A stretch of 64,000 nt of DNA from Roseibacillus ishigakijimensis (GCF_016595415.1 NZ_JAENIO010000018.1:1-64000), one strand, 5' to 3'. Positions 59,734 to 64,000 are shown, counted from the stretch's first letter. The notes: a model not told the origin generated them from the sequence alone. Made by a program: numbers and translations.

Positions 59734-60501
59734 ATGCTCCTCCGCTCCTCCCTCACTGGTCTCGTCGTCACCCTCCTCCTTGCGGTCCTCCTCGCCGCCT
59801 CCCGCATTTTCTCCGTCGAGCCTCCCGAGACCATCGAGCTCACCGAGGTGGAAGTGATCGAACTGGCCCCTCCCCCCCCACCACCAGAACTCTCCGAGCC
59901 AGAGGAGCAAACCAGTGAGGACCTCCCTCCCCCGCCCACACCCAAGATCGAACTGCAGGACGTCGTCACCCCCGACACTCCCGAGATCGCGTTGGCCATC
60001 AGCGAGGTGCCCTTGACCACCCCCATCCAGAACTTCCAGACCGAGATGGCCCCCGCTCCCATGCCGGCCCTTCCAAAACCCAAACCCAAGCCCAAGCCGG
60101 TGGCCAAGCCCAAGCCCACTCCGCGCAAATCCACCCCCGCACCCACCCGCACCTACACCAAGCCAACTCCCAAGCCCTCCCCCCGGCCCGCCCCCAAGCC
60201 GGTGGAAGTCACCAAGTCCTACTACTCGGCGGGCGAACTCGACAGCCTCCCCCGCGAGCGCTACACGGGCAAATTCCGCTGGCCCTCCTCCGCCCGCGGC
60301 ACCTCCGGCACTGTGAAGCTCTATATCGAAATCTCCACCTCCGGCCGCGTCAAAGTCCTCAGCGTGGTCTCTTCCACCGATTCCGCCTTGAGCAGTGCCG
60401 CCAGCAAGATCGCCCGTGGCAGCCGCTTCACCTCCCCCACCCGCGGCGGCAAACCCGTGAAAGCCCGCTTCTATAAAACTTATCACCTGAAAAAGCCATG
60501 A
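59734..60501 (+). CDS. tonB: TonB energy-transducing protein
   Basis: 255 residues. N-terminal membrane anchor (residues ~8-25), an acidic proline stretch, a long Pro-Lys spacer (PKPKPKPKPVAKPKPTP) spanning the periplasm, and a C-terminal TonB domain (YTGKFRWPSSARGTSGTVKL, GKPVKARFYKTY). It transmits energy to the siderophore receptor. It has an AAGGAA-like ribosome site 12 bases ahead and overlaps the TPR gene by four bases. Confidence 0.93.
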   Translation: MLLRSSLTGLVVTLLLAVLLAASRIFSVEPPETIELTEVEVIELAPPPPPPELSEPEEQTSEDLPPPPTPKIELQDVVTPDTPEIALAISEVPLTTPIQNFQTEMAPAPMPALPKPKPKPKPVAKPKPTPRKSTPAPTRTYTKPTPKPSPRPAPKPVEVTKSYYSAGELDSLPRERYTGKFRWPSSARGTSGTVKLYIEISTSGRVKVLSVVSSTDSALSSAASKIARGSRFTSPTRGGKPVKARFYKTYHLKKP

Positions 60502-61874
60502 CCCGACTTTTCCTCGCCCTCTCCCTGTTGGCCACCGGGGCCTTCGCCGCCCCCCAGATGCCCCTCTCCCAGTCCTATTGGCAGGACCCCGCCTTCCTCA
60601 AGGAATTCAACGGCTCCTACCGCATCAATGCCAATATCGAGCCCGTGCTGACCAGCGAAGAGCGCGGCCTCCTCCGCGACATCCAGTCCCTGATGTCCAC
60701 CGGACAACGCACCAACACCATCAACAAGCTCAAGGCCAGCCCTCTGGTAAACACCTCCCCCGCCGTGCAGTTCAATCTCGCCAACGTGCTCAGCGAGAAT
60801 GGCCGCCTGGAGGAGGCGATCGTCTACTACCGCAAGGCCATCAAAGAACTCCCCTCCTTCCGCCGCGCCCACCAGAACCTCGCCTACGCCCTCTTCCGCG
60901 AAGGCGAAGTGGACGAGGCCTACGATCATCTTTTGGAAACAGTCCGCCTCGGCGGCGGCGATGGCTCCGTGCACGGCCTCCTCGGCCACTGCTTCCAGCA
61001 AAAAGGGCAGCCCGAAGCCGCTCTCCTCTCCTTCCGCCAGGCCCTCGTCACCCAACCCGAGACCACCGAGTGGAAAATCGGCGTGGCCCACTCCCTGCAA
61101 CAGCTCAACCGCTCCGCCGAGGCCCTCGCCCACTACGAGAGCCTGGAGGAAAAAAGCGACCTCGTGCACCTGCAGATCGCCCTTCTGCACAATGAACTGG
61201 GTCAACCCGGGAAGGCCCTCGCCAAGCTGGAAGTCCTGCGCCGCAAAGAGGCCCTCGACGCCGATTATGAGATTCTCCTCGGCACCCTCCTGCTCAATCA
61301 CGGCAATCCCCTGCAGGGAGCCAGCGTGCTCAAAGACGTCATCGGAGCAGCCAGCTTCACCAATCACCCCGCCGCCCTCAATGCCGTCCGCTTCAGCTTG
61401 GAAAGTGGTCACCGCGCGCTGGCAGGAGAACTGCACGAACTCGTCAAGACCGACGAACTTTCCCCCGCCCAGAGCACCACCCACCGCCGCCTGCAAGCCC
61501 AGCTCCTCCTCGCCCAAGCCGGAGAAGGCGGCGAAGACGCGGCCAGCCAAAAGGAAGAAGGACTCGCCCTCTTGCGCGAGCTGGTCACCGCCAATCCCAC
61601 CGACTCCCACTCCCTCCTCCTCCTCGGGCAACAGCAAGTGGAAGCAGGTGAGAACCGCGCCGCCCTCCTCACCTTCGAGCAAGCCATTCACGCCGAGGGC
61701 TCGCACTCGCCCCAAGCCATGCTGGCCAAGGTGCAGACCCACGTCGCCCTCCAAGAGCACGAGCAAGCCATTCCCGTGCTGAAGGACTACCTTGCGATCA
61801 ACGACGACCCCAGCGTGCGCGACTACCTCTCCGCCTTGGAAAACATCGTGCGCGCCCGCACGGTGGCTCAGTAG
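60498..61874 (+). CDS. TPR-repeat protein of the TonB2-type cluster
   Basis: 458 residues. The signal peptide ends at GAFAAPQM. About ten helical TPR-like repeats follow (AVQFNLANVLSENGRLEEAI, AHQNLAYALFREGEVDEAYD, EWKIGVAHSLQQLNRSAEAL). TPR proteins close TtpC-type TonB clusters and are thought to be periplasmic or outer-membrane scaffolds. The last 20 codons (61811-61870) are the left copy of a 59-bp direct repeat; the right copy, with a different ending, is at 63834. Confidence 0.88.
   Translation: MTRLFLALSLLATGAFAAPQMPLSQSYWQDPAFLKEFNGSYRINANIEPVLTSEERGLLRDIQSLMSTGQRTNTINKLKASPLVNTSPAVQFNLANVLSENGRLEEAIVYYRKAIKELPSFRRAHQNLAYALFREGEVDEAYDHLLETVRLGGGDGSVHGLLGHCFQQKGQPEAALLSFRQALVTQPETTEWKIGVAHSLQQLNRSAEALAHYESLEEKSDLVHLQIALLHNELGQPGKALAKLEVLRRKEALDADYEILLGTLLLNHGNPLQGASVLKDVIGAASFTNHPAALNAVRFSLESGHRALAGELHELVKTDELSPAQSTTHRRLQAQLLLAQAGEGGEDAASQKEEGLALLRELVTANPTDSHSLLLLGQQQVEAGENRAALLTFEQAIHAEGSHSPQAMLAKVQTHVALQEHEQAIPVLKDYLAINDDPSVRDYLSALENIVRARTVAQ
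61811..61869 (+). repeat. Left direct repeat (59 bp), 3' end of the TPR gene
   Basis: This 59-base stretch, from CAGCGTGCGCGAC to GGTGGCTC, recurs at 63834-63892 with a single difference (T here at 61849, C there at 63872). Immediately after it the two copies diverge (AGTAG here, CCTGA there), so the repeat ends just before the stop codon of each copy. Confidence 0.97.
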
Positions 61875-61984
61875 CGCTCCGTTCGGCTTGGAGAAGGGTT
61901 CCACCAAGGTGAGGGAATCCCCGCCCGCGCGACAACAGTGATCGACAAACTCGACCTCCCTGGCGGTTCGAGGTAGTTTTGCCC

Positions 61985-63142
61985 ATGCACTTCCGCCATC
62001 TCACCGTCAGAAATTGGCGCAACTTCACGAAAGTAGACGTTCCTCTGAGCGAACGGCTATTCTTGGTGGGACCCAATGCAGCCGGAAAATCGAACCTCCT
62101 TGATGTCTTTTTATTTTTAAAGGATTTGGCCAAGTCCGATGGAGGCCTGCAACAGGCGGTGGAATCACGAGGCACAATGAAGAAGCTTCGCTCCCTCTTC
62201 GCCCGCAGCAACCCCAAGATAGAAATCGGGGTGGAGCTCCACGACCCTGACACAGACGATCGGTGGACCTACCACATCGCTATCAGCCAAGAACAGCGGG
62301 GGCATCATCGGCCCATCATCGCTGCGGAAAAGGTAACCCTCAATGGCAAGACCCTTTGCGACCGACCAGACCCGAACGACCGCTCCGACCCCGAGCGCCT
62401 CACTCAAACTTGGCTGGAGCAAATCAGCCTCAACAAAGACTTCCGCCCTCTGGCCTCCATCTTTCAACAAACCAATTACCTTCACCTCGTCCCCCAGCTT
62501 CTCAAGTTCCCAACCTTAGCGAGCCGTGAGGGAAATGGCCACGACCCCTTTGGCGTCCGCTTCCTCCAACGCATGATGGAGACAACGGAAAAAACCCGTC
62601 GGTCGCGCCTTCGCAAAATCGAGAGAGCCCTCCAAGTCGCCGTTCCTGAGTTCAAGGATCTCTTGGATGTGCGTGACGAAATCACCGGTCAGCCTCACCT
62701 GGAGGCAACCTACCGTCATTGGCGACCCAATGGTGCCCGCCAACGCGAGGACCAATTCTCCGACGGCACGCTCCGCCTCATCGGCCTCCTCTGGTCACTG
62801 CTGGACGGCCGCTCGCTCTTGCTCTTGGAAGAACCAGAAGTCTCGCTACACTCCGACATCATCCGGGAACTACCTTCCTTAATGTGGCGGGTGCAGAGGG
62901 AGACCAAGACCAAGCGGCAATTGTTTGTTTCCACCCACAGCTACGAGATGCTCAGCGACAAAGGGATTCGCCCGTCTGAAATACTTATTCTCGAGCCCTC
63001 TCAGGGAGAAGGGACCAAGGTGAGCAATGTGGCCGACATCCCGGAACTAAGGACCCTTCTCCAGAACGGACTTTCTCCGGCAGATTCAGTTCTTCCCCGC
63101 ACCAGGCCAGGCAATCTGCAACAACTCTCTCTCTTCGAGTAG
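61985..63142 (+). CDS. ABC/AAA_21-like ATPase (OLD/PARIS-type), first gene of the cassette
   Basis: About 385 residues. FLVGPNAAGKSNLLDVFLFL is a Walker A of the RecF/SMC/OLD kind. The signature region SDGTLRLIGLLWSLLDG, Walker B LLLLEEPEVSLH and the switch FVSTHSYEML follow. These ATPases with a paired TOPRIM partner occur in anti-phage modules such as OLD, PARIS and AbiL. The chain has no fused nuclease domain; the next gene, one base after, provides a TOPRIM-like candidate. ATG 61985 is preferred to TTG 61979. The function is inferred from architecture. Confidence 0.85.
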   Translation: MHFRHLTVRNWRNFTKVDVPLSERLFLVGPNAAGKSNLLDVFLFLKDLAKSDGGLQQAVESRGTMKKLRSLFARSNPKIEIGVELHDPDTDDRWTYHIAISQEQRGHHRPIIAAEKVTLNGKTLCDRPDPNDRSDPERLTQTWLEQISLNKDFRPLASIFQQTNYLHLVPQLLKFPTLASREGNGHDPFGVRFLQRMMETTEKTRRSRLRKIERALQVAVPEFKDLLDVRDEITGQPHLEATYRHWRPNGARQREDQFSDGTLRLIGLLWSLLDGRSLLLLEEPEVSLHSDIIRELPSLMWRVQRETKTKRQLFVSTHSYEMLSDKGIRPSEILILEPSQGEGTKVSNVADIPELRTLLQNGLSPADSVLPRTRPGNLQQLSLFE

Positions 63143-63143
63143 A

Positions 63144-63749
63144 ATGATGCCTATCCCTGTTCATTGCGCGGTCGAAGACAAGCTCAGCGAGGCCATTCTG
63201 CTCCGTTGCTTTTCCGAATGCGGATTGACCCACGCCACGACCCTTAGCCGGGGCGGTTTTGGCTACCTCAAGAAGATTGCTCCCGCCCTGAACCTCTCCG
63301 CGCAGGGAATGCCTTACGTGATGTTGACCGACCTCGACGACGGACCTTGCGCCCCAGAACTGATTGCCAATTGGATGAACGGGCAAATGCGACATCCTCA
63401 TTTCCTCCTCCGAGTCGCGGTGCGGGAGGTCGAAGCTTGGTTGTTGGCGGATACCGCGAACTTCAGCCAGTTCCTCGGCATTTCCGCCAACCTTCTTCCC
63501 GAAGATTGCGAGATGCTACCGGATCCCAAGCTGGAGCTTCTAAAGGCCGCCCGACGCAGCCGCCATCGCAAAATTCGAGAAGACCTTGTCACCCAAGAAG
63601 CCCATGGCCCGGTCCAAGGTCCGGACTACAACGGAGCCCTCGCAAAATTCGTGGCCGAGAATTGGGACTTGTCCGAAGCAGCAGGCCGCTGTCCAAGCCT
63701 CCAAAAACTGATGATTCGCTTGCGTGAACTTGAACAAACATTGCGTTAG
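63144..63749 (+). CDS. TOPRIM-like protein (DUF4276-type), second gene of the cassette
   Basis: 201 residues. HCAVEDKLSEAILLRCF could supply the first acidic residue of a TOPRIM fold, MLTDLDDG the Asp-x-Asp pair, and VREVEAWLLADTANF is the hallmark of DUF4276-like proteins next to ATPases. LPDPKLELLKAARRS and GPDYNGALAKFV follow in the conserved order. A metal-dependent nuclease role is plausible. It starts one base after the ATPase stop, so the two are a two-gene operon. Family assignment is from memory of pattern, not from a search. Confidence 0.7.
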   Translation: MMPIPVHCAVEDKLSEAILLRCFSECGLTHATTLSRGGFGYLKKIAPALNLSAQGMPYVMLTDLDDGPCAPELIANWMNGQMRHPHFLLRVAVREVEAWLLADTANFSQFLGISANLLPEDCEMLPDPKLELLKAARRSRHRKIREDLVTQEAHGPVQGPDYNGALAKFVAENWDLSEAAGRCPSLQKLMIRLRELEQTLR

Positions 63750-63833
63750 CAAACAGGCTCCAAAGAAACTCGCCTCCAAATCACCCTAATTCTCAAATTA
63801 TTTACAGAAAATCAATTATCACGAAAATACATG

Positions 63834-63892
63834 CAGCGTGCGCGACTACCTCTCCGCCTTGGAAAACATCGCGCGCGCCCGCACGGTGGCTC
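63834..63892 (+). repeat. Right direct repeat (59 bp)
   Basis: Copy of 61811-61869 with one substitution (58 of 59 identical). Its left edge abuts A/T-rich cassette sequence ending AAAATACATG, and its right edge continues into CCTGACACTTG, presumably the original chromosome. Confidence 0.97.
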
Positions 63893-63897
63893 CCTGA
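63834..63897 (+). pseudogene. Displaced native 3' end of the TPR gene
   Basis: In the frame of the TPR gene this reads SVRDYLSALENIARARTVAP and then TGA, differing from the intact gene's end at two residues (Ile-Ala for Ile-Val, final Pro for Gln). It has no start codon or upstream coding sequence, so it is a remnant of about 20 codons, most simply the original end of the gene before the cassette came in. Confidence 0.75.
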
Positions 63898-63909: not shown

Positions 63910-64000
63910 TTACGAAATATTTCGTAGCTCGGTCACAAGCGCGCCTGTCGCCGTGGCTTGCCAGGCCACCTCGTGGTCACCCACGCTGGCGCGGTAGGTG
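63910..64000 (-). CDS. C-terminal fragment of a minus-strand gene running off the window
   Basis: Reading in from the right edge gives 29 open codons ending VAWQATATGALVTELRNIS and a TAA. The codon use is high G+C at third positions, like the chromosomal genes. Too short to identify. It would converge with the TPR gene in an uninterrupted chromosome, ending 12 bases past the remnant's stop. Confidence 0.45.
   Translation of the reverse strand, partial: TYRASVGDHEVAWQATATGALVTELRNIS
63911..63926. promoter_or_regulatory. Perfect 16-bp palindrome beside the right repeat
   Basis: TACGAAATATTTCGTA is its own reverse complement. It overlaps the stop of the minus-strand fragment and lies 18 bases outside the right repeat. 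It could be a small transcription terminator stem, an operator, or a recombinase-related site. No T-run follows it. Confidence 0.5.

Follow-up and report, generated by a model that had tools for sequence, protein, structure and literature searches.

A two-gene HEC-01 insert between copies of a gene end in Roseibacillus ishigakijimensis, and cassettes of like anatomy in other genomes

It is still an open question how small defence and toxin-antitoxin modules reach new genomes when they carry neither an integrase nor a transposase. A locus in Roseibacillus ishigakijimensis (GCF_016595415.1), where a HEC-01 gene pair lies between two copies of the last 59 bp of a TPR gene, raises this question in a compact form. 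The locus is contained in a stretch of 64,000 nt, one strand of NZ_JAENIO010000018.1 from position 1 to 64000, which we refer to as the window and in which all positions of the locus are counted. The contig of the window measures 74.9 kb and belongs to an assembly of 4.14 Mb in 192 contigs, with 95% completeness.

The insert and its repeats

The gene at which the insert resides (60498..61874, plus strand) is an open reading frame (ORF) with Pfam TPR matches, and it stands last in an ExbB/ExbD/TonB-like motor operon. A direct repeat of 59 nt is present at positions 61811-61869 and 63834-63892, with 58/59 identity and a start-to-start distance of 2023. The left copy (plus strand) completes the TPR gene, forming the end of an intact ORF of 458 aa (..IVRARTVAQ*, TAG at 61872-61874). 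The right copy (plus strand) is an orphan TPR 3' end, which reads ..IARARTVAP* and continues to a TGA at 63895-63897. An earlier note, made from this sequence, had described a repeat with one mismatch, an intact gene on the left and an orphan remnant with a different ending on the right, and our analysis agrees with these points (ARTVAQ versus ARTVAP). The interval between the repeats (61870..63833, plus strand) is 1964 bp long and holds an ATPase ORF and a 201-aa ORF as its sole genes, with flanks of ~110 and 84 bp; the content given in the note, an ATPase gene and a TOPRIM-like gene, is thereby upheld, the latter being TOPRIM-like by its fold. The G+C content of the insert is 55.7%, compared with 63.9% in the TPR gene and 60.4% in the window. 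The 84 bp immediately 5' of the right copy (63750..63833, no strand) form an A+T-rich tail of 34.5% G+C.

The repeat goes far beyond what chance would give (E = 2.9e-23). Its score is 56, and a shuffled control (3-mer blocks, ~2 Mb of this genome) contained zero local direct repeats scoring at least 18. Whole-genome search, which the earlier note had proposed for further copies of the repeat, finds exactly two copies in the 4.14-Mb assembly, the runner-up matches being 14-25 bp long. The genome has no further copies of the insert ends, and the A+T-rich tail is also without a relative in it. No match to the repeat was found in viral contigs by exact 32-mer, and no match to the insert DNA was found on plasmids. 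ORF, Pfam and PADLOC scans reveal no recombinase gene between the repeats or adjoining the insert, so that the note's statement that none is encoded inside holds. The search for a tyrosine recombinase in the genome, also proposed there, does give six matches, but all of them are on contigs other than that of the window. A hairpin inside the repeat (CGTGCG-CGCC-CGCACG) was considered and is probably a chance feature of G+C-rich DNA.

On the far side of the insert lies the 3' end of a convergent trmO gene (63910..64000, minus strand, extending to about 64572 beyond the window; ..LVTELRNIS*, TrmO_N E=1.2e-38), whose stop is located 12 bp past the orphan TPR stop. Without the insert, the TPR gene and trmO would thus meet tail to tail in a tight junction, and 12 bp would separate the two stops. 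The uninterrupted ancestral site would read TPR..GTGGCTCCCTGA-12 bp-trmO, with one copy of the repeat. A perfect 16-bp palindrome, TACGAAATATTTCGTA (63911..63926, no strand), overlaps the trmO stop and was possibly the shared bidirectional terminator of the original tail-to-tail pair.

The insert is absent from the relatives sampled. TPR homologues are present in 49/58 relatives at E<=0.001, the best with 45% identity; the three same-genus genomes yielded none at a comparable level. Comparison of the relatives' loci, suggested in the earlier note, gave TPR homologues without cassette or repeat, with repeats bracketing 0/29 of the TPR loci tested. Different genes stand in the sequences read 3' of the homologues, such as one in G006 that was named dapA-like by eye. 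These comparisons support an insertion specific to the lineage. The C-terminal ends of the homologues are too divergent in alignment to tell which ending of the TPR protein is native.

The HEC-01 pair

The first gene of the insert (61985..63142, plus strand) encodes a HEC-01A-like AAA_21 ATPase of 385 aa from an ATG at 61985, a TTG start at 61979 being also possible. It matches the PADLOC model PDLC04180 with E=8.5e-153 over profile positions 1-380/382 and Pfam AAA_21 with E=3e-35, and its alignment profile extends to GajA and AriA in the PDB. The second gene (63144..63749, plus strand) starts 2 bp past HEC-01A and encodes a HEC-01B-like protein of 201 aa (PADLOC PDLC04194, E=2.2e-57), whose sole Pfam match is a weak one to DUF4276 (E=4.9e-6). 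The structure predicted for this protein has a mean pLDDT of 92.8. Its best matches among solved structures are the C-terminal nuclease regions of OLD proteins, with a probability of about 1.0 but an E of just 4e-3. The motifs AxED, TDLD and EVExW are kept across relatives, and the predicted fold is in keeping with a TOPRIM-like protein.

The insert thus contains both genes by which HEC-01 is recognised, a full-length HEC-01A and an adjacent HEC-01B, and the pair corresponds by sequence to a candidate anti-phage system catalogued in PADLOC. By analogy of family and fold with PARIS and OLD-type systems, it probably couples an ATPase that senses infection to a TOPRIM nuclease effector. PARIS (AriA/AriB) is likewise a two-gene operon of an AAA_21 ATPase and a TOPRIM-type partner; its detection rule demands an AAA_15 or AAA_21 ATPase with a DUF4435 partner (PMC9122126). 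The ATPase of the window fits that rule, but the partner does not, as AriB is defined by DUF4435 whereas the protein here carries DUF4276 and gave no AriB match in the PADLOC scan. We therefore rejected PARIS as the identity of the pair. No match to HEC-01A was found in phage records, and no cassette ends are conserved among the HEC-01 relatives.

The same anatomy at other gene ends

The earlier note had taken the locus to be singular, knowing of no described integration site of its kind. This did not stand, as the same anatomy recurs both at a second gene of this genome and, in other genomes, at several unrelated genes. A scan for local direct repeats covered about 2.0 Mb of the assembly (G000). 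Paralogous genes, internal repeats and a CRISPR-like array account for most of its matches. One match, however, consists of two identical copies (35/35 bp; G000:C137 174689-174723 / 175385-175419) that bracket a DUF433-like/DUF5615 toxin-antitoxin pair (L186 14689-15419). Here the right copy ends a DUF3109/YkgJ-like gene that is intact and lies on the minus strand, and includes its stop codon; the left copy, located behind alkB, is an orphan tail. The DUF433 label follows from homology to the G450 pair described below and from our own judgement, the short first protein having no match in Pfam. None of ten relatives (G001-G003 and others, three of them of the same genus) has a repeat of this type at the orthologous DUF3109/YkgJ-like gene, and the gene tails of the same-genus relatives differ in sequence from this target.

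A cassette homologous to that of C137 over ~650 bp is present in G450, where 85-bp repeats (78/85) from the rnc 3' end bracket it, so that the repeats of two homologous cassettes come from two unrelated genes. The rnc insert is common to G450 and its sister G525 and absent at the other rnc loci compared. Where the intact and orphan 85-bp copies differ, G525 agrees with either copy by turns, which is the pattern expected if both copies began identical. The inserts of the window, C137 and G450 are all located at tail-to-tail gene junctions. In G013 a 61-bp stretch of an hsdS tail is repeated (53/61) on either side of a DUF433/DUF5615-type cassette, and in G007 a ParDE-type pair lies between ~270-bp repeats (82%), within which the end of nth is contained. 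In a deltaproteobacterial metagenome-assembled genome (L112, 1428-4606) the acrB tail occurs three times in tandem array, the first interval between copies holding a ParDE-type pair and the next an AAA/RloB pair; this array looks like two cassettes accreted at one gene end. In Mycobacterium yunnanensis (L081, 7556-10936) a HEC-01-like pair is contained in 3.3 kb without an integrase, between 46-bp repeats of a tRNA-Met 3' end. A mycoplasma toxin-antitoxin pair with flanking direct repeats has also been mentioned in passing (PMC8562856).

Applying one procedure to all families, with rnc, YkgJ-like and TPR loci as controls, we found long direct repeats bracketing 9/27 DUF5615, 3/27 ParE, 2/23 HEC-01 and 0/29 RloB loci, compared with 0/73 controls. 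The excess over the controls (Fisher) has p = 2.5e-6 for DUF5615 and p = 9e-4 for the four families pooled, with loci from one and the same bacterial family not being fully independent, and with the window and C137 cases, which prompted the survey, counted in by construction. The two bracketed HEC-01 loci are the window and the doubtful L056; one of these two and all three bracketed ParE loci passed a weaker inspection only. Among random tiles of the window's genome 22/1755 are bracketed, mostly by paralogues and the CRISPR-like array. At three of the DUF5615 loci (L275, L277 and L283) neighbouring toxin-antitoxin units are each followed by the same non-coding repeat of 50-90 bp, an arrangement loosely reminiscent of cassette arrays or integrons.

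Origin of the insert

We infer both the direction of events and the mechanism from the anatomy. The reading that we favour, with chances that we consider about even, is that the 59-bp duplication derives from the target and arose at insertion without a site-specific recombinase. A compact HEC-01 pair would have been acquired and inserted at the tail-to-tail TPR/trmO junction, in an event that copied the final 59 bp of the TPR gene. One copy would have restored the TPR reading frame beside the insert; the other would have stayed beyond it as an orphan tail of 59 bp, and neither neighbour would have been broken. The duplication might have come about, for example, when incoming or circular DNA was joined by homology-assisted together with illegitimate events, and selection would retain insertions that leave both genes intact.

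The repeats themselves point in this direction. They resemble their own target far more than any orthologue of the target and, being near-identical copies of poorly conserved gene tails, look target-derived. The insert of the window is flanked by such long repeats, the left of which is in frame with the TPR gene. Moreover, homologous cassettes are present at unrelated gene ends with unrelated repeats, which argues that the repeats come from the target and not from the element. For restriction-modification genes, insertion with "long and variable target duplications" has been proposed (PMC3031569, after Nobusato et al. 2000). Those insertions and the present one are alike in that a short selfish or defensive complex is flanked by long, variable, target-derived repeats and needs no recombinase in the element. 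They differ in cargo, which is restriction-modification there, whereas it is a HEC-01 pair here and toxin-antitoxin in the parallel cases, with no methyltransferase or restriction gene between the repeats. They also differ in that the stretch duplicated in the window is a gene tail that restores its gene.

Several observations weigh against a target duplication of this kind. The step that would make a target duplication of 35-85 bp is unexplained. Among the sampled relatives the comparison gave no empty site at the nucleotide level, the homologues being too distant and different in sequence and neighbours. Bracketing is rare among the HEC-01 relatives (2/23, the window and the doubtful L056, and none of the closest genome-contig relatives), and the RloB pairs have none (0/29). 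Of the nine DUF5615 brackets, several fall short of a clean duplication of a gene tail: L274 is an antitoxin paralogue, the repeats of L275, L277, L283 and L291 are past the toxins or non-coding, and that of L278 is inside a Fic-type gene. To these must be added the tRNA-Met case, which looks like ordinary integrase-type targeting, and the tandem acrB cassettes, which resemble the accretion described for cis-mobilizable elements (CIMEs; PMC5704250).

The last two observations bear on site-specific integration of Campbell type, which the earlier note had proposed and which we regard as possible, with a probability somewhat below even. According to this explanation the insert is a non-autonomous or decayed, CIME-like island without an integrase, the 59-bp TPR tail serves as attL and attR, and a tyrosine recombinase acts in trans. 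A restored gene with an orphan tail at a gene-end target is the textbook outcome of such integration, and the integrase-less HEC-01-like cassette between tRNA-Met repeats fits integration by an absent integrase. Islands that restore their target at its 3' end are known from ICESt1/3 at fda, SCC at rlmH and the tRNA-gene islands. In these too the target is kept functional by the copy on the element side; however, they carry a site-specific recombinase or derive from carriers of one, while the window insert has none and to that extent is not an autonomous element. CIMEs by definition keep attL and attR and lack the integration genes (PMC5704250), and the insert is like them in having two att-like repeats at a gene end and no integration or transfer genes; the tandem accretion of CIMEs has its likeness in the acrB array. 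It differs in being a minimal two-gene cassette, with no related integrative element sharing the repeat found and with repeats that do not recur between related cassettes.

Against site-specific integration stand the lack of a recombinase within or beside the insert and the restriction of the repeat to this one locus, with no other copy in the genome or, by exact 32-mer, in viral contigs. A specialised att site in the TPR tail is also unlikely because this tail is poorly conserved. Nor is the insert a decayed island, as it has just two genes and flanks of about 110 and 84 bp. Finally, Campbell integration implies related att sites in related elements; the repeats of the homologous C137 and G450 cassettes are unrelated, and target duplication is therefore favoured. 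What remains of the earlier proposal is the insertion at a gene tail, the rebuilt gene end and the orphan tail, while the site-specific mechanism is doubtful.

An old duplication in the TPR family, in which the right copy would be what is left of another TPR gene and the defence pair would have lain between two paralogues, is improbable. Adjacent paralogues with near-identical tails do exist in this genome (C104 54002/55114 and 103149/106453). However, just the last 59 bp are duplicated here, at 98% identity and with abrupt ends, and the one other strong TPR match of the genome, on C77, aligns residues 6-272 and not the tail. As trmO lies 12 bp past the orphan stop, there is also no space for a second gene end. 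Less probable still is an artefact in which two strain variants of a metagenome bin were joined at shared sequence: 192 contigs at 95% completeness do suggest a metagenome-assembled genome, but a chimeric join at a shared k-mer yields one copy instead of two, the two copies differ from each other and have four different flanks, and the C137 case is independent.

As the anatomy recurs around other toxin-antitoxin and defence pairs, small defence modules may commonly settle at gene tails in this manner without an integrase of their own. A wider proposal, which we consider rather unlikely, is that toxin-antitoxin and defence two-gene modules of several phyla share an undescribed route into gene tails, especially at tail-to-tail junctions, that is recombinase-free or driven by host enzymes, duplicates 35-90 bp and leaves the host gene whole. 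By the scar of orphan gene tail, short cassette and intact gene tail, such insertions can be recognised in any genome, their orientation read and their number established, which makes the mechanism testable. The scar also offers a rule for annotation: where the tail of a gene stands orphaned close to a two-gene module, that module is likely to be a defence or toxin-antitoxin cassette that was acquired.

The genome contains other loci of related interest. Neighbouring paralogues at G000:C104:54002-55329 and 103149-106715 are nearly identical over their last 216 and 263 bp and diverged in the remainder, possibly through gene conversion of the tails. At G000:C115:121564-124256 a 194-bp piece of the gene for a 1718-aa protein recurs downstream of a small gene, which resembles the tip of a polymorphic toxin, displaced together with a candidate for its immunity gene. 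An RloB-family gene is located at G000:C125:30061-30597, and the CRISPR-like array, with 37-bp repeats of the sequence GTCTTCAGTGCCTTTCGGCTGAGGGGATTGGGGGGAG, lies at ~41.8-43.4 kb of G000:C126.

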